NCBI RefSeq assembly: GCF_035917455.1
Contig: NZ_CP109078.1
Location: forward strand, 2,790,001 to 2,854,000
Length of the DNA stretch: 64,000 nt
DNA from: Micromonospora sp. NBC_01796
GTDB lineage: Bacteria; Actinomycetota; Actinomycetes; Mycobacteriales; Micromonosporaceae
Reading direction: 5' to 3'
How positions within the stretch are numbered: the stretch's first letter is position 1; each line of letters begins with the position of its first letter. Positions 49,498 to 56,527 of this stretch are shown here, one piece after another. The position numbers were made by a program, and so were the translations under genes. The notes below the pieces were generated by a model that did not search any database, was not told the DNA's origin, and saw nothing but the letters and a program-made list of their open reading frames with translations.

Positions 49498-49947
49498 GTG
49501 CCCACCGACCCCCTCCGGTGCGCCGGAGCCCTGATCGTCGACGACGACGGTCGGATCTTCTTCCAGCGCCGGTCCCCGCAGCGAAAGCTCTTCCCCGACA
49601 CCTGGGACATCGTCGGCGGCCACCTGGAACCCGGCGAGGGGATCGAGGACGCGCTGTCGCGTGAGGTGACCGAGGAGACCGGCTGGACCGTCTCGGTGGT
49701 CCTCGGCCTGGTCGGTGAGTACACCTGGACCGGCAACGACGGGTTCACCCGGCTGGAGAGCGACTTCCTGGTACGCGTCGACGGTGACCTGACCCGCCCC
49801 CGGCTCGAGGTGGGCAAGCACACGGAGTTCCGCTGGCTGAACGAGCACGAGATGGAGGTGCTGGACGAGCACCGGCACGTCAACGACGGCATGATCCGCC
49901 GGATCGCCGAGGACGCGTTCGCCGCCCTGCACGCGATCGGCCTCTGA
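49498..49947 (+). CDS. NUDIX hydrolase
   Basis: 149 residues with a complete NUDIX box GHLEPGEGIEDALSREVTEETGW (shown only here), the metal-binding Glu residues present. Hydrolyses a nucleoside diphosphate linked to another group. The last 39 bases and the stop are tandemly duplicated just downstream. Start GTG 49498 behind a leaderless promoter. Confidence 0.92.
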   Translation: MPTDPLRCAGALIVDDDGRIFFQRRSPQRKLFPDTWDIVGGHLEPGEGIEDALSREVTEETGWTVSVVLGLVGEYTWTGNDGFTRLESDFLVRVDGDLTRPRLEVGKHTEFRWLNEHEMEVLDEHRHVNDGMIRRIAEDAFAALHAIGL

Positions 49948-49986
49948 GAGGACGCGTTCGCCGCCCCGCACGCGATCGGCCGCTGA
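49909..49986 (+). repeat. 39-bp tandem duplication over the NUDIX stop
   Basis: Bases 49909-49947, including the stop codon, are repeated at 49948-49986 with two differences. The second copy lies outside the gene. A recent slippage duplication that left the protein unchanged. Confidence 0.9.
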
Positions 49987-50082
49987 CCGGTCCGACGGCT
50001 GCCCGGTCCGGCTGGAAACCGCCGTTCTGTCCCTCGGGGCTATCCTCCGTGCGGTAGTCGTTGTCACAAGGAGGATCCACTG

Positions 50083-50856
50083 ATGATCGGATTAGTGCTC
50101 GCCGCAGGGGCCGGGCGCCGGCTGCGCCCGTACACGGACACCCTGCCCAAGGCGCTCATTCCGGTCGATGGTGGCACGACCATCCTCGACATCGCGCTGC
50201 ACAACCTCGCCGAGGTCGGGCTGACCGAGGTGGTCGTCGTGGTCGGCTACGCCGCCTCCGAGGTACGCGACCGCCAGGCCGCCCTGGAGCAGCGCCACGG
50301 CGTACGGCTCACCCTGGTGCAGAACGACAAGGCCGAGGAGTGGAACAACGCGTACTCCCTCTGGCTGGCCCGGGACCACTTCGCCCAGGGGGCGTTGCTG
50401 GTCAACGGCGACACCGTGCACCCGGTGAGCGTGGAGCGGACCCTGCTGGCCAACCGTGGTCCGGGCATCCTGCTCGCCATCGACGACGTCAAGAAGCTGG
50501 CCGACGAGGAGATGAAGACCATCTTCGACGCCGACGGGCAGCTCACGAAGATCACCAAGCTGATGGACCCGGCCGACGCGTACGGGGAATACATCGGCGC
50601 CACCCTGATCGAGCCGGCCGCCGCGCCCGCCCTGGCCGAGGCGCTGGAGGCGACCTGGCGCCGGGACCCGAACCTCTACTACGAGGACGGCTACCAGGAG
50701 TACGCGAACCGGGGCGGTGAGGTGCGCGGCACCCCGATCGGTGACGTGGAGTGGGTCGAGGTCGACAACCTCGCCGACCTGACCCGGGCCCGTGAGATCA
50801 CGAGCTGGCAGTGGGCGACCGGGTCCGGCACCGACGACCGGCCGACCGGCAGTTAG
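50083..50856 (+). CDS. Phosphocholine-type nucleotidyltransferase
   Basis: 257 residues with the LAAGAGRRLRPYTDTLPKAL signature of sugar or alcohol phosphate nucleotidyltransferases, a NGDT acidic site and a GTPIGDVEWVEVD end. The NDKAEEWNNAYSLWLAR segment is typical of phosphocholine/phosphoethanolamine/inositol-phosphate cytidylyltransferases. It probably activates a polyol or alcohol phosphate with CTP. AAGGAGG precedes ATG 50083. It is the first of three genes in one operon. Confidence 0.85.
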   Translation: MIGLVLAAGAGRRLRPYTDTLPKALIPVDGGTTILDIALHNLAEVGLTEVVVVVGYAASEVRDRQAALEQRHGVRLTLVQNDKAEEWNNAYSLWLARDHFAQGALLVNGDTVHPVSVERTLLANRGPGILLAIDDVKKLADEEMKTIFDADGQLTKITKLMDPADAYGEYIGATLIEPAAAPALAEALEATWRRDPNLYYEDGYQEYANRGGEVRGTPIGDVEWVEVDNLADLTRAREITSWQWATGSGTDDRPTGS

Positions 50857-50865
50857 GGGAGTCGG

Positions 50866-51933
50866 GTGCCGCTGCTAGCCCGTACGGTCAACACGCCACT
50901 GATCATCGAGGTACGCCGGGGCGCGATCGCCGACCTCGGCCCCCTCCTCGCCGACCAGCGCATCTCCGCCGGTGGTGACGTGGCGGTGGTGGTCGGCCCG
51001 GGGCAGGGTGAACGGATCGTCGAACTGATCCGCCCCACCCTCGGTTCCGCCGACGTGTTCACCGTCGCCGGTGGCACCCTGGACGCCGCCCTCGAACTCG
51101 GCGACAAGCTCCGCGCCCGCTCGTACGACGCGGTTGTCGGCATCGGTGGCGGCAAGACCATCGACACCGCCAAGTACGCCGCCGCCCGGTACGGCATCCC
51201 GATGGTGTCGGTGGCGACCAGCCTCGCCAACGACGGGATCGCCTCCCCGATCGCCACCCTCGACCACGACGGGGGACGCCCGTCCTACGGGGCGCACATC
51301 CCGATCGCGGTCGTGGTCGACCTGGACTTCGTCGAGTCCGGCCCGGACCTGCACAACCGGGCCGGGATCGGGGAGCTGCTCAGCAACATCAGCGCGCTCG
51401 CCGACTGGGAGCTGGCCCGCGAGATGTGCGGTGAGCGGGTGGACGGGCTCGCCGCCACGCTGGCCCGTACCGGCGCCGAGGCGATCATCAACCATCCCGG
51501 CGACATGACCGACGACGGTTTTGTCACCATCCTCGCCGAGTCGTTGATCGCGAGCGGCCTGGCCATGGCGATCAGCGGCACCAGCCGGCCGTGCAGCGGC
51601 GGTTGCCACGAGATCATGCACGCGATGCACCTGCTCCGGCTCGGCACAGGTTCGCACGGCGAGCAGGTCGGTCTCGGCGGCCTCTTCTGCACCTTCCTCC
51701 GGGGTGACCTGCCCCGGTTCCGGCAGATGGCGAGCTGCCTGCACCGCCACGGCCTGCCGATCCTGCCGGCCGATCTCGCGCTGACCGACGACCAGTTCGT
51801 CGATGTGGTGCTGCACGCTCCCCGGACCCGACCGGACCGCTACACGATCATCGAGCACCTCGACCTGTCGCCGGACGGGATCCGCGACCGGCTGGCAGAC
51901 TACGCCGATGCCCTCCGTGACCACCTCCGCTGA
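50866..51933 (+). CDS. Glycerol-1-phosphate dehydrogenase-like enzyme
   Basis: 355 residues of the iron/zinc alcohol-dehydrogenase fold, EgsA/AraM type. Seen: GIGGGKTIDTAKYAA (NAD(P) loop) and metal ligands in CHEIMHAMH and SHGEQVGLG, plus SVATSLANDGIASP. Such enzymes reduce dihydroxyacetone phosphate to sn-glycerol-1-phosphate, the archaeal stereochemistry. It starts 9 bases after the nucleotidyltransferase and overlaps the next gene by 26 bases, so the three work together. Other 3-carbon or polyol substrates are possible. Confidence 0.85.
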   Translation: MPLLARTVNTPLIIEVRRGAIADLGPLLADQRISAGGDVAVVVGPGQGERIVELIRPTLGSADVFTVAGGTLDAALELGDKLRARSYDAVVGIGGGKTIDTAKYAAARYGIPMVSVATSLANDGIASPIATLDHDGGRPSYGAHIPIAVVVDLDFVESGPDLHNRAGIGELLSNISALADWELAREMCGERVDGLAATLARTGAEAIINHPGDMTDDGFVTILAESLIASGLAMAISGTSRPCSGGCHEIMHAMHLLRLGTGSHGEQVGLGGLFCTFLRGDLPRFRQMASCLHRHGLPILPADLALTDDQFVDVVLHAPRTRPDRYTIIEHLDLSPDGIRDRLADYADALRDHLR

Positions 51934-52633
51934 GCCGTTCCGTCCGACCACCGCCGACTTCTACCGGGTGAACCGGGGCGGCGGCCTGTTCAGCGAGGCG
52001 TTCAGCCAGCGCCTCGGTGCCGGCTTCGCGCTGCTCGCGTACCGCCTGGGGTTGAGCCCGACCGCGTTGACCATGGGCAACCTGGTGCTCGGGCTGGCCG
52101 CCTCGGTCGCCGTGGTGGCGCTGGCCGGGCCGGTCGCCGACGGGGACGTACCGGCCTGGGTGGTCGGGCTGATCGCGCTGGTCGGCTGGCAGGTCGCGTA
52201 CGCCCTGGACTGTGCCGACGGGCAGCTCGCCCGGGTCACCGGGCGGGGCAGCCCGGCCGGTGCGCGGGTCGACATCCTCTGTGACGTGGCGGCCCAGATC
52301 GCCCTGGTGACGGCGCTCGGGGCGACCGCGGTGGCGCAGCGCCCGAGCACCCCGGTCTGGCTGGTGGCGGCGTTCGCCGGGACCTGGATGGTCAACCTGG
52401 TCACCTCGGTGATGCAGGCCGGTCCGAACCACGCCAGCATGGTCACCTCGACCAGCCTGCCGGTACGCCTGGCCAAGCTGATCCGCGACTACGGGGCGGT
52501 GATCTTCGTGGCCGCCCTGGTCCTGATCCTCGTCCCGGCCGCCACGATCTGGATCATCGCGGCCTTCACCGTGGTCAACGGGGGCTTCCTGCTCGCCAGC
52601 ATCGCCTTCTCCGCCCGCGCCTCCCTCCGCTGA
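51908..52633 (+). CDS. CDP-alcohol phosphatidyltransferase
   Basis: 241-residue membrane enzyme with about six helices. Seen: the CDP-OH motif as DCADGQLARVTGRGSPAGARVD, i.e. D-x2-DG-x2-AR-x8-G-x3-D, which binds CDP and metal. It joins a CDP-activated alcohol to another lipid or alcohol. Overlap with the dehydrogenase means coupled translation. Together with the two upstream genes it could use CDP-glycerol-1-phosphate or a related polyol (inference). Confidence 0.88.
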   Translation: MPSVTTSAEPFRPTTADFYRVNRGGGLFSEAFSQRLGAGFALLAYRLGLSPTALTMGNLVLGLAASVAVVALAGPVADGDVPAWVVGLIALVGWQVAYALDCADGQLARVTGRGSPAGARVDILCDVAAQIALVTALGATAVAQRPSTPVWLVAAFAGTWMVNLVTSVMQAGPNHASMVTSTSLPVRLAKLIRDYGAVIFVAALVLILVPAATIWIIAAFTVVNGGFLLASIAFSARASLR

Positions 52634-52637
52634 GGGC

Positions 52638-53807
52638 CTACCCGGCGAGGGACTTGTAGGTGTCGAGGAGTTGGGTGGTGACCACCTCGGGGCGGAAGGT
52701 GGCGAGGTAGCGGGTGCGGGCCAGGGGGGCGAGCGCGGGCGCGGCGGCGCGGGCGGTGGGCAGGGCGGCGGCCAGGGAGGTCGCCTCCGCCGGCACCACC
52801 CAGCCGGCGGCGGTCGGCGGATGGTCCATCCCGATCAGGTACGGCACCCCGCCGAGCGCCGTACCGAGCACCGGGCGGCCGGCGGCGAGCGCCTCGATCA
52901 CCACCGTCGGCAGTACGTCGTGCCAGGTCGGTACGGCCACCACCACCGCGGCTGCCCGTACGGCGGCCCACACTCCGGCGCGGTCCAGCGGGCCGAGGTA
53001 CTCGACGTCGGTACGTTCCCGGGCCGCCGCCTCGGCCAGTGGGCGCAGCTCACCGTCCCCGGCGATCCGGAGCGGGCCGAGGGACCCGTCGGGGTGCTGC
53101 CGCCAGGCCTGGAGCAGCAGGTCGAGACCCTTCTCCGGGGAGAGCCGACCGAAGAAGAGGAAACCGTCGCCGAGCGGGGCCGGCTCGCCCGGATCGGGGA
53201 TCGCGTTCGGCTTGATCACGATCCGGTCGTCCGGGATGCCGTACTCGCGCAGGTGGTCGGCGACGGCTGAGGTGAGGGCGATGAACCTGTCGACCGAACG
53301 CCAGGTCGGCCGGTGGACCGCGAGCGTGGTCGCCATCAGCGCGCTCTGCGCCCGGGAGCCCCGGTAGCAGCGGTGCACGATCGCCGGCACGCCGAGCGCC
53401 CGTCCTCGACAGTCGTGGCAGATGTGCCCGTCCCGGAAGTACAGCCCGGAGGAGCAGACCTGCCGGTAGTTGTGCACCGTCTGGACCACCGGCACACCGT
53501 GCCGGTGCGCGGTCCGCACCACCCAGGGTGACAGGAGGGGGTACGGATTGTGCAGGTGCAGTACGTCCGGCCGCTCGGTCTCGATCAACCGGCTCAGATC
53601 CTGCTGCGCCTGGGGCGCGTAGATGGGCGAGATCGGCAACAACACCTTCGCGCTCTTGGGCATCGCCGGGATCTCGTCCGAGCTGCGCAGGAACGGCAGC
53701 ACGTCGACCCCAGCCCCGGTGAGCTGGGCGATCTCCAGATCGACCATGGTGTTCTCGCCCGACGGCTGAGCTTCTCGATACCGGTTGTGCGCTACGACCA
53801 CCTTCAC
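52638..53807 (-). CDS. Family 4 glycosyltransferase
   Basis: 389-residue GT-B enzyme. Seen: HNRYREAQPSGENTMV (donor/acceptor side loop), GFLFFGRLSPEKGLDLLLQAW and EALAAGRPVLGTALGGVPYLI, with the conserved Glu of the GT4 E-x7-E-like region (ptVVIEAL). It also carries a Cys-rich strip CSSGLYFRDGHICHDCRG. It faces the CDP-alcohol operon tail-to-tail by 5 bases. Sugar and acceptor unknown. Confidence 0.9.
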   Translation of the reverse strand: MKVVVAHNRYREAQPSGENTMVDLEIAQLTGAGVDVLPFLRSSDEIPAMPKSAKVLLPISPIYAPQAQQDLSRLIETERPDVLHLHNPYPLLSPWVVRTAHRHGVPVVQTVHNYRQVCSSGLYFRDGHICHDCRGRALGVPAIVHRCYRGSRAQSALMATTLAVHRPTWRSVDRFIALTSAVADHLREYGIPDDRIVIKPNAIPDPGEPAPLGDGFLFFGRLSPEKGLDLLLQAWRQHPDGSLGPLRIAGDGELRPLAEAAARERTDVEYLGPLDRAGVWAAVRAAAVVVAVPTWHDVLPTVVIEALAAGRPVLGTALGGVPYLIGMDHPPTAAGWVVPAEATSLAAALPTARAAAPALAPLARTRYLATFRPEVVTTQLLDTYKSLAG

Positions 53808-54693: not shown

Positions 54694-54964
54694 GTGACCA
54701 ACAATTGGCTGAGGGTAGAAATCGCCCAGGTGGAGATGAAATCTCCATCGGACAGATCTGGCCAGGACGCCATCCATCGGTATAGTGACCCGGTCCGAGG
54801 CGCTTATCGGGCGGTGCCGGCTCGCTCTCATCGCCCGTCGGTGGAGCGTAAAGTCCCTCCGGTCGACGCCCCTACCGGGGCCTGCGTGGGAGACTGAGAC
54901 GGTGGGCGACCCGAGCCCTTTCGGCGAATGGGCGGCACGTGTCACACGGGAGGACGTAGGTGAG

Positions 54965-56527
54965 GTGACGACAAGCCTCCAGCGCCCGGTAACTGGCACT
55001 GGCCGGAATGGCCCGGTACGACACGTCGACAGCTTCGAGATCCAGCTGCCGGCGACTCCGCCACCGAACGGCGTACCCCGTTCCGCCTGGGCCAAGGTCA
55101 GCCGGCGGGTCTCGCGGTGGCACCGTCCGTACATCCTGATCCTGCTCGTGCTGGACTTCGGCGCGGCCGCGTTGGCGAGCTGGGTGTCGATCCAGCGGTT
55201 CGAGAAGGCCACCTCCGGTTTCAACGGCGCGGACGTCGACGCCACCTGGTTCCACACGGTGACGTACCTGTTACTGCCGCTCGGTTGGTTGCTGGTGCTC
55301 TGGGGCAACCGCGCCTATGACCGGCGCTATCTCGGCATCGGCACCGAGGAGTTCAAACGCGTCGTACGGGCCGGCATCGTGGTCGCGGCGAGCGTTTCAT
55401 TCCTCGCGTTCGCCACCGTGACGGCGCTGTCCCGACTCTCCGTCGCCACGGCGGTACTCGGCGCACTGCTGTTCATCCTGATCTTCCGATTGCTGGCGCG
55501 TTTTGTACTGCACACGATGCGGCGACGCAGCGGACACGCCGCGCACCGGATGGTGCTGGTCGGCACCCTGCCGGAGGCGCTCGAGGTCTACACCGCGGTC
55601 ACCCGCAGCCCGGCCGCCGGGCTGATCCCGGTCGCGATCCACCTCACCGACGGTTACGCCGCCGCCCGGGGAATGGAGACCCCGGTGCCGGTCTACGCCG
55701 GGCGCGACGTGCTGGCGCTGGTACGTGAGGTCGCCGGCGACACGATCGCGGTCTGCGGCTCGGCCAGTTGGGAACCGGGCGAACTGCGCCGGCTCGCCTG
55801 GCAACTGGAGGGGTCCGGCATCGACCTGGTGGTCGCCCCGCAGTTGACCGACATCGCCGGTCCCCGGGTGCACATCCGGCCGATCGAGGGCCTGCCGCTG
55901 CTGCACGTCGAGGAGCCCACCCTCTCCGGTCCGGCGCTGCTCGCGAAGAACCTGCTCGACCGGGTCGCCGCCGGGCTGGGGCTGCTCCTGCTCTCCCCGC
56001 TGTTCATCGCGATCGCGCTCGCCATCCGGATCTCCGACCCCGGCCCGGTCTTCTTCCGCCAGCCGAGGGTCGGGCACGAGGGCCGCACCTTCCGGGTCTG
56101 GAAGTTCCGGACCATGTACGTCGACGCGGAGGACCGCCTCGCCGGGCTGGTCGACCAGAACGAGACCGACGGCATGCTCTTCAAGATCAAGGAGGACCCG
56201 CGGGTCTTCCCCGTCGGCCGGTTCCTGCGGGCCAGTTCCCTGGACGAGCTGCCGCAGCTCATCAACGTACTCAAGGGCGAAATGTCCCTGGTCGGCCCGC
56301 GTCCGCTCCCGGCCGACGACGGCGACTTCCTCGGCGACGTACGCCGCAGACTGCTCGTCCGCCCCGGCATGACCGGCCTCTGGCAGGTCTCCGGCCGATC
56401 CGACCTCTCCTGGGACGAAGCCGTCCGCCTCGACCTCTACTACGTCGACAACTGGTCCCTCGCCTACGACCTGAGCATCCTCTGGCGGACCATCGGCGTG
56501 GTCCTGGCCCGCAAGGGCGCGTACTAG
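54965..56527 (+). CDS. Polyprenyl glycosylphosphotransferase
   Basis: About 520 residues. Seen: several transmembrane helices in the first half (ILILLVLDFGAAALAS, a CoA-binding-like Rossmann region AAHRMVLVGTLPEA), and the C-terminal PssY/WcaJ catalytic domain with KRxFD-like FRVWKFRTMYVDAEDR, DELPQLINVLKGEMSLVGPRPLP and PGMTGLWQVSGRSDLSWDE. It starts a glycan on undecaprenyl phosphate. GTG 54965 (GGAGG upstream) is preferred; GTG 54902 is possible. Upstream 270 bases hold hairpin GGAGATgaaATCTCC. Confidence 0.92.
   Translation: MTTSLQRPVTGTGRNGPVRHVDSFEIQLPATPPPNGVPRSAWAKVSRRVSRWHRPYILILLVLDFGAAALASWVSIQRFEKATSGFNGADVDATWFHTVTYLLLPLGWLLVLWGNRAYDRRYLGIGTEEFKRVVRAGIVVAASVSFLAFATVTALSRLSVATAVLGALLFILIFRLLARFVLHTMRRRSGHAAHRMVLVGTLPEALEVYTAVTRSPAAGLIPVAIHLTDGYAAARGMETPVPVYAGRDVLALVREVAGDTIAVCGSASWEPGELRRLAWQLEGSGIDLVVAPQLTDIAGPRVHIRPIEGLPLLHVEEPTLSGPALLAKNLLDRVAAGLGLLLLSPLFIAIALAIRISDPGPVFFRQPRVGHEGRTFRVWKFRTMYVDAEDRLAGLVDQNETDGMLFKIKEDPRVFPVGRFLRASSLDELPQLINVLKGEMSLVGPRPLPADDGDFLGDVRRRLLVRPGMTGLWQVSGRSDLSWDEAVRLDLYYVDNWSLAYDLSILWRTIGVVLARKGAY

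Follow-up and report, generated by a model that had tools for sequence, protein, structure and literature searches.

A three-gene operon of Micromonospora sp. NBC_01796 with a predicted role in supplying CDP-(sn-1)-glycerol for a teichoic-acid-type wall polymer

The window analyzed here, a 64,000-nucleotide stretch of one 8.56 Mb contig of Micromonospora sp. NBC_01796, carries three open reading frames (ORFs) at 50083-52633, all present and open on the + strand, that encode a nucleotidyltransferase (gene 1), a dehydrogenase (gene 2) and a transferase of cytidine diphosphate (CDP)-linked alcohols (gene 3). Genes 1 and 2 are separated by a 9-base gap and genes 2 and 3 overlap by 26 bases, raising the question of which activated alcohol phosphate this operon makes, and for what product. 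We consider it probable, with considerable room for doubt, that this operon produces CDP-(sn-1)-glycerol, which is the enantiomer of the standard precursor of teichoic acids, and consumes it for a polymer resembling wall teichoic acid (WTA) that is exported by a TagGH-type transporter. The archaeal-type dehydrogenase would reduce dihydroxyacetone phosphate to sn-glycerol-1-phosphate (G1P), as its family and its place in our tree suggest, and the LicC/IPCT-type product of gene 1, judged by its family and its conserved pairing with gene 2, would couple G1P to CTP to yield CDP-(sn-1)-glycerol. The membrane protein encoded by gene 3 may then place the glycerol-1-phosphate unit on a membrane-bound acceptor, perhaps a primer or anchor. 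A TagF-type polymerase encoded at a second locus may draw on the same donor for chain growth, and the genome context suggests that the TagGH-type ABC transporter of that locus would export the product. TagD is the usual maker of CDP-glycerol; if the pair of genes 1 and 2 supplies CDP-(sn-1)-glycerol, it would replace TagD and give a WTA-like polymer of reversed glycerol handedness.

Conserved gene pair, teichoic-acid-type clusters and TagD

Close homologues of the dehydrogenase (E <= 1e-96) occur in 26 genomes of a 61-genome set of relatives, and in 21 of these, the Micromonospora genome included, it is flanked by the nucleotidyltransferase and a CDP-alcohol transferase of the same type as gene 3, an arrangement that we call architecture A. 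Because both partners flank the dehydrogenase in 21/26 genomes that carry it, the triplet is not a chance arrangement. Four of the 26, from four genera (L034-L037), have the order nucleotidyltransferase, dehydrogenase, TagG-type permease, and one (G024) has the dehydrogenase alone, without partners. When sampling was extended to 394 genomes of the class, the dehydrogenase was found in 100. The nucleotidyltransferase adjoins it at 26 of 27 loci outside the family of Micromonospora (L046-L072; at L053 by a fragment at a contig edge), and the next gene is a second type of CDP-alcohol transferase (type B) at 18 of the 27, tagG/tagH at six, and neither at three. Type B matches gene 3 at 28% over 92 aa only, indicating that lineages have drawn on separate branches of a single large family for the third position. 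Since the third gene is swapped or dropped across lineages, the conserved core consists of genes 1 and 2; conservation is lowest for the third gene, and a distant relative or tagG takes its place in other lineages. Among the best 80 of 585 confirmed members of another, mostly non-actinobacterial, set resembling G1P dehydrogenase, a nucleotidyltransferase partner was present at 0 of 80 loci, some of which had little flanking DNA. Plasmid matches in Nitratidesulfovibrio and Cytobacillus belonged to another such clade without the nucleotidyltransferase partner.

A first-pass annotation of this sequence had the activated unit joined to a lipid or glycan, and missed that the pair belongs to teichoic-acid-type clusters and, within our sample, never shares a genome with a TagD-like enzyme. 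In Streptomyces fungicidicus (L073), the annotated cluster contains, in this order, genes for a DUF5941 protein, a phosphocholine cytidylyltransferase family protein, an iron-containing alcohol dehydrogenase, a CDP-alcohol phosphatidyltransferase, a glycosyltransferase, an ABC permease and an ABC ATPase. Hopanoid genes (hpnC, hpnD, hpnE, shc, hpnH) come directly after it. At L104, the nucleotidyltransferase, dehydrogenase, tagG, tagH, DUF5941, CDP-alcohol transferase and GT2 genes form one cluster with TagF convergent to it, and two further families (L205, L207) have a CDP-alcohol transferase gene on the same strand as the core pair, tagG and tagH. Elsewhere TagF is encoded within 5 kb (L200, 56% identical to the TagF of Micromonospora), TagF-type genes lie within ~9 kb of the pair (L201, L202), or tagG/tagH lie within ~7 kb of it (L204, L206); the names TagG and TagH rest on annotation and on published papers. 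At L201 and L202, the dehydrogenase near the TagF-type genes is a second copy; both genomes belong to family f33, probably Streptomyces.

The genome of Micromonospora sp. NBC_01796 carries the other half of such a one-cluster arrangement at a second locus 0.55 Mb distant from the triplet (L092:7534-15662, at ~2.281-2.290 Mb), in the order tagG, tagH, DUF5941/CDP-alcohol transferase, GT2/TagF fusion, GT2. A TagF-family polymerase (PF04464, 380 bits) thus stands together with ABC2_membrane and ABC_tran proteins in a single locus with the gene content of a WTA locus, and the TagG encoded there is 46–52% identical to the permeases downstream of the pair in L034-L037. The DUF5941 protein of this locus includes a second CDP-alcohol transferase domain.

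These observations are consistent with studies of Streptomyces, in which a syntenic region holds a CDP-alcohol transferase, GT2, nucleotidyltransferase, tagG, tagH and araM together (PMC13118837). In a CRISPR interference screen of S. albidoflavus, silencing of tagH/tagG (XNR_0273/0274) was harmful, scoring as a positive-fitness hit, and the adjacent five genes, XNR_0275-0279, were assigned to teichoic-acid synthesis (PMC12892944). From their number and place we infer that these five are orthologues of the set described here. The Streptomyces region is evidently the same cluster type, tied to teichoic acid through synteny and tagGH silencing (PMC13118837, PMC12892944), whereas the passages of the two papers that treat it draw no mechanism from araM, make no mention of TagD and give no stereochemistry. 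We found no link between this locus and a paper on tagG of S. roseosporus, as far as its accessible text goes (PMC10269677). In the open-licence literature we found no paper that describes a G1P cytidylyltransferase, or that suggests for these genes either CDP-(sn-1)-glycerol or a wall polymer of mirror-image handedness.

In the class sample, TagF (PF04464, E <= 1e-25) was detected in 157 of the 394 genomes and a TagD-like enzyme (TIGR01518, E <= 1e-20) in 32, four of them above the curated cut-off. The dehydrogenase co-occurs with TagF in 94 of the 100 genomes that have it, and with a TagD-like enzyme in none of the 100; TagF accompanies 21 of the 32 TagD-like enzymes. Within-group contrasts for this mutual exclusion are small and limited to two. 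Family f41 is the one family with both, having TagD-like enzymes in 23 genomes and the dehydrogenase in three, without overlap, and its genus g99 includes two dehydrogenase genomes, both without a TagD-like enzyme and without strong TagF. In family f1, TagF is present in 18 of the 21 genomes with architecture A and in two of the 16 lacking it.

The Micromonospora genome itself lacks a TagD match above the TIGR01518 cut-off of 165.4 bits (best score 43 bits), as do all 61 genomes of the relatives set. It has one strong IspD-family match only (220 bits), for which reason we rejected the production of CDP-ribitol by a TarI-like IspD paralogue; a second match, of 46 bits, is over the Pfam cut-off. 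A second LicC-like enzyme was rejected as well, because gene 1 has no close paralogue in the genome, the next match being 30% over part of the protein at 47 bits. With TagD absent, a single strong IspD, and no paralogue of gene 1, we found no other obvious source of a CDP-polyol than gene 1, if TagF needs one. In Bacillus subtilis, WTA is built of sn-glycerol-3-phosphate through TagD and lipoteichoic acid of G1P from phosphatidylglycerol, and the GlpQ enzyme of this species cleaves the sn-3 form only (PMC7086022). Like the B. subtilis pathway (TagD, TagF, TagGH), the Micromonospora genome has a TagF-family polymerase, a TagGH-family exporter and a predicted donor of the CDP-glycerol type; unlike it, there is no TagD, and the donor is predicted to arise from G1P by EgsA-type and LicC-type enzymes.

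Family assignments of the three enzymes

The first-pass annotation called the dehydrogenase EgsA/AraM-type and proposed comparing it with AraM and archaeal EgsA by phylogeny, and this comparison bears it out on the EgsA side. Gene 2 belongs to Fe-ADH_2 (PF13685, 111 bits against a curated Pfam cut-off of 28 bits). A profile built from 19 actinobacterial homologues scored 216 bits against EgsA of Methanocaldococcus jannaschii (4rgq) and 194 bits against archaeal EgsA 5fb3, compared to 122 bits for 9h4x, a chain bearing the name G1P dehydrogenase, and 84 bits for the glycerol dehydrogenase 1kq3. The top match of the profile, 3ce9 (221 bits), was deposited as a glycerol dehydrogenase and falls in a neighboring clade of our tree. 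That tree comprises 60 sequences with two archaeal rows only and its root set at 9h4x, and a published phylogeny used far more (PMC6431249). All 30 actinobacterial rows of the pair type formed one clade (ultrafast bootstrap, UFBoot, 85); the two archaeal EgsA rows were its sister group, with UFBoot 100 for the joint clade; the 3ce9 group was the next clade out, and 9h4x lay outside. Alignments revealed conserved blocks shared with EgsA around the metal site and NDGIASP. Gene 2 therefore appears to group with archaeal EgsA and not with AraM-type or glycerol dehydrogenases. Of the metal ligands of G1P dehydrogenases, which we take to be Asp, His and His, with Asp a ligand in M. jannaschii EgsA, gene 2 keeps both His residues (H248, H264) and has Glu (E170) at the Asp position. 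A divergent Fe-ADH_2 protein, 35% identical over part of its length, occurs in a relative without the triplet (L041:3937-5250) and falls outside the G1P dehydrogenase clades.

Dehydrogenases of this kind are known in actinobacteria from phylogenies, and archaeal-like lipids were suggested for Streptomyces having GGGPS and DGGGPS (PMC6431249). Like AraM of the AraM/PcrB system of B. subtilis, gene 2 would be a bacterial G1P dehydrogenase, but 9h4x, which we took as AraM-like, is outside the gene 2 clade, and PcrB was over its cut-off in 0 of the 61 genomes. Archaeal EgsA (4rgq, 5fb3) has its metal-site and substrate-side blocks in common with gene 2, whereas gene 2 is paired with a nucleotidyltransferase and with wall-polymer genes.

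The best matches of gene 1 among solved structures were LicC, a CTP:phosphocholine cytidylyltransferase (1jyk), followed by Thermotoga 4jd0, which has been named an inositol-1-phosphate cytidylyltransferase (PMC12275187). All 18 homologues in the alignment share R13, K23, D110, M144 and K159 without exception, and R13, K23 and D110 align with 4jd0, so that gene 1 has the conserved Arg, Lys and Asp of the NTP_transferase family. The spacing of the five residues resembles that of R16, K26, D112, M147 and K161 of CpgD, the CTP:phosphoglycerate cytidylyltransferase of Caulobacter, as judged from published residue numbers only (PMC12275187, PMC13228409). CpgD is of the LicC/IPCT type (COG1213) according to its authors and also acts on a C3 phosphate, its product being CDP-glycerate (PMC12275187). 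We predict that gene 1 encodes a CTP:sn-glycerol-1-phosphate cytidylyltransferase.

CDP-alcohol phosphotransferases have the motif pattern D-x2-DG-x2-AR-...-G-x3-D-x3-D. Its residues are invariant in 21 of 21 gene 3 homologues, and gene 3 belongs to PF01066 (35 bits, cut-off 22 bits). The first-pass annotation had asked whether gene 3 falls in an inositol-phosphate clade, and the answer is divided: the nearest proteins by sequence are cholinephosphotransferases (CHPT1/CEPT1), while the best fold matches of a predicted model (mean pLDDT 84.8) are AF2299 (Z 19.4, root-mean-square deviation (rmsd) 3.0, 219 residues aligned) and the fused enzyme IPCT-DIPPS (4mnd; Z 18.1, rmsd 3.3, 208 aligned), with CHPT1 lower (Z 14.8, rmsd 3.5, 198 aligned). 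No match among solved structures names the acceptor of gene 3, and the sequence search and fold search point to different relatives; an inositol-type acceptor stays compatible with the fold alone. Our prediction is that gene 3 takes CDP-glycerol as its donor and passes the glycerol-1-phosphate to an acceptor in the membrane.

Counter-evidence and competing pathways

Several observations weigh against the proposed CDP-(sn-1)-glycerol scheme. Glycerol-1-phosphate was not accepted as a substrate by CpgD, which by description shares the nucleotidyltransferase family of gene 1 (PMC12275187). Gene 2 scores 224 bits against NF002022, the equivalog of NAD(P)-dependent G1P dehydrogenase, under the curated 413 and hence outside the equivalog. 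The metal-ligand Asp position, Asp in M. jannaschii EgsA and most homologues, is Glu (E170) in the window; Glu also occurs in the nearest relative (L004) and in L023 and L061, few relatives overall. No tag gene adjoins the triplet in the window itself, the sequence retrieved at L105, L106, L107 and L208 contains the pair but no tag genes, and L110, L203 and L074 carry DUF5941, the pair, a CDP-alcohol transferase and GT2 without tagG/tagH. Six of the 100 dehydrogenase genomes have no TagF match at the threshold used, and three triplet genomes (G008, G031, G036) are without strong TagF. Conversely, 42 of the 157 TagF genomes have neither the dehydrogenase nor a TagD-like enzyme, so that a TagF-type protein need not imply either donor. 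Finally, the 394 genomes are related, with 79 of the 100 dehydrogenase genomes coming from families f31 and f33, and in a sample this uneven phylogenetically the very small Fisher values of co-occurrence are not readable as probabilities.

Two rivals are the strongest, one based on a different polyol phosphate and one on a phospholipid route of the Kennedy type. In the former, gene 2 would act on a keto-polyol phosphate other than dihydroxyacetone phosphate, and some other CDP-polyol would result for the same exported polymer. The missed family cut-off and the change of ligand from Asp to Glu are compatible with this, as is the range of relatives of gene 1, which use choline, inositol, glutamine and glycerate phosphates (PMC12275187); but the profile scores to both EgsA structures, the shared metal-site and NDGIASP blocks and the sister position to EgsA lead us to regard it as unlikely, though a serious contender. 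In the phospholipid route, CDP-(sn-1)-glycerol and the cholinephosphotransferase-like gene 3 would attach glycerol-1-phosphate to diacylglycerol, and the product would be phosphatidylglycerol with the usual handedness of its head group or another glycerophospholipid, and the link to tag genes would be secondary. The chemistry would fit, because phosphatidylglycerol carries its free glycerol phosphate in the sn-1 configuration (PMC7086022), and the CHPT1/CEPT1 matches and the distance of the triplet from tag genes in the window agree with it. Against this, ordinary phosphatidylglycerol synthesis is probably already present (eight PF01066 matches in the genome, roles not assigned), and lineages that have lost or exchanged the third gene still keep genes 1 and 2 together with tagG or tagGH, which makes this route rather improbable in our judgment.

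Like the fused IPCT-DIPPS, the operon combines a cytidylyltransferase and a CDP-alcohol phosphotransferase, and gene 3 matches AF2299 and 4mnd in fold at Z 18–19, as would be expected if it served di-myo-inositol-phosphate or other inositol-phosphate chemistry. However, the two activities are separate genes here with a dehydrogenase in between, a homologue of glycerol-phosphate dehydrogenases has no role in an inositol-phosphate route, and the IPCT-DIPPS equivalog NF041135 gives only 52 bits (gene 1) and 25 bits (gene 3) against a curated 580, weak matches to both domains that leave this explanation very improbable. An ether lipid made from G1P, of archaeal or AraM/PcrB type, would account for an EgsA-type dehydrogenase, and Streptomyces is listed with G1P dehydrogenase, GGGPS and DGGGPS (PMC6431249), yet the partner of gene 2 is a nucleotidyltransferase and not a prenyltransferase. 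PcrB/GGGPS (PF01884) was absent from the Micromonospora genome and over cut-off in 0/61 genomes, a search that did not extend to GGGPS in Streptomyces; we rejected this route for the dehydrogenase family as highly improbable. Phosphonate tailoring involves the same three enzyme kinds, and a head-group pathway with phosphonoacetaldehyde reductase, cytidylyltransferase and CDP-alcohol transferase could thus be imagined. The best match to phosphoenolpyruvate mutase (TIGR02320) in the genome reaches 54.6 bits against a cut-off of 319.6, and we rejected this pathway as scarcely credible.

Features of the window and implications for wall polymers

The three closely packed genes described in the first-pass annotation were borne out by the ORFs (Table 1), by Pfam scores above cut-off for all three genes (51 bits to PF00483 for gene 1, with genes 2 and 3 as given above) and by GC content at the three codon positions (0.71/0.45/0.94 for gene 1, 0.72/0.49/0.91 for gene 2 and 0.69/0.54/0.96 for gene 3), a pattern of real genes in high-GC DNA that supports the ORFs as real. 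The GT4 glycosyltransferase that it placed next door does adjoin the operon, its gene being four bases past the last stop codon, but lies on the convergent strand, for which reason we rejected it as an operon member; the link is specific to architecture A, where GT4 lies within 1.5 kb at 14 of the 20 other loci. Overall the earlier reading was largely right and is partly supported, its prediction of CDP-activated G1P agreeing with the families and the tree. Upstream, 49909-49947 and 49948-49986 form a near-perfect tandem copy of the last 39 bases of a NUDIX gene, stop codon included. Downstream, past the GT4 and Fpg-like genes, 54785-56527 encodes a polyprenyl glycosylphosphotransferase of the exopolysaccharide (EPS) type (TIGR03025, 400 bits), possibly another envelope-glycan gene.

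Table 1. Coordinates of the operon and adjoining features in the window
Feature	Position	Strand	Basis
Shine-Dalgarno-like AAGGAGG upstream of gene 1	50068..50074	+	read directly from sequence
Gene 1, LicC/IPCT-type (COG1213-like) nucleotidyltransferase, 257 aa	50083..50856	+	PF00483; structures 1jyk, 4jd0
Gene 2, archaeal-type glycerol-1-phosphate dehydrogenase homologue (Fe-ADH_2), 355 aa, GTG start	50866..51933	+	PF13685; EgsA 4rgq; tree
E170 codon, at metal-ligand Asp position	51373..51375	+	alignments
Gene 3, CDP-alcohol phosphotransferase, integral membrane, 241 aa from ATG at 51908	51908..52633	+	PF01066; fold
CDP-alcohol transferase motif DCADGQLARVTGRGSPAGARVDILCD	52208..52285	+	motif residues in 21/21 homologues
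GT4 glycosyltransferase, convergent neighbor	52638..53807	-	Pfam; synteny in architecture A only

The component kinds of this system are known, and their combination and its stereochemical consequence appear to be new. We would extend the proposal only tentatively, as an attractive possibility, to a large part of the class (100/394 genomes), which would make a teichoic-acid-type wall polymer from CDP-(sn-1)-glycerol with a G1P dehydrogenase and a LicC-type enzyme replacing TagD. If this is true, these bacteria would build wall polymers with the handedness of archaeal lipids and lipoteichoic acid although their synthesis would be cytoplasmic and their export the work of TagGH, and different bacteria would assemble their wall teichoic acids from opposite enantiomers of glycerol phosphate. 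It would also account for the absence of TagD from many genomes with TagF-type polymerases, and the wall-polymer link gives the G1P dehydrogenases of actinobacteria a testable job. Judging from the named Streptomyces and Nonomuraea records, many of the genomes with this set are probably those of antibiotic-producing actinomycetes, in which wall polymers bear on growth and sporulation.

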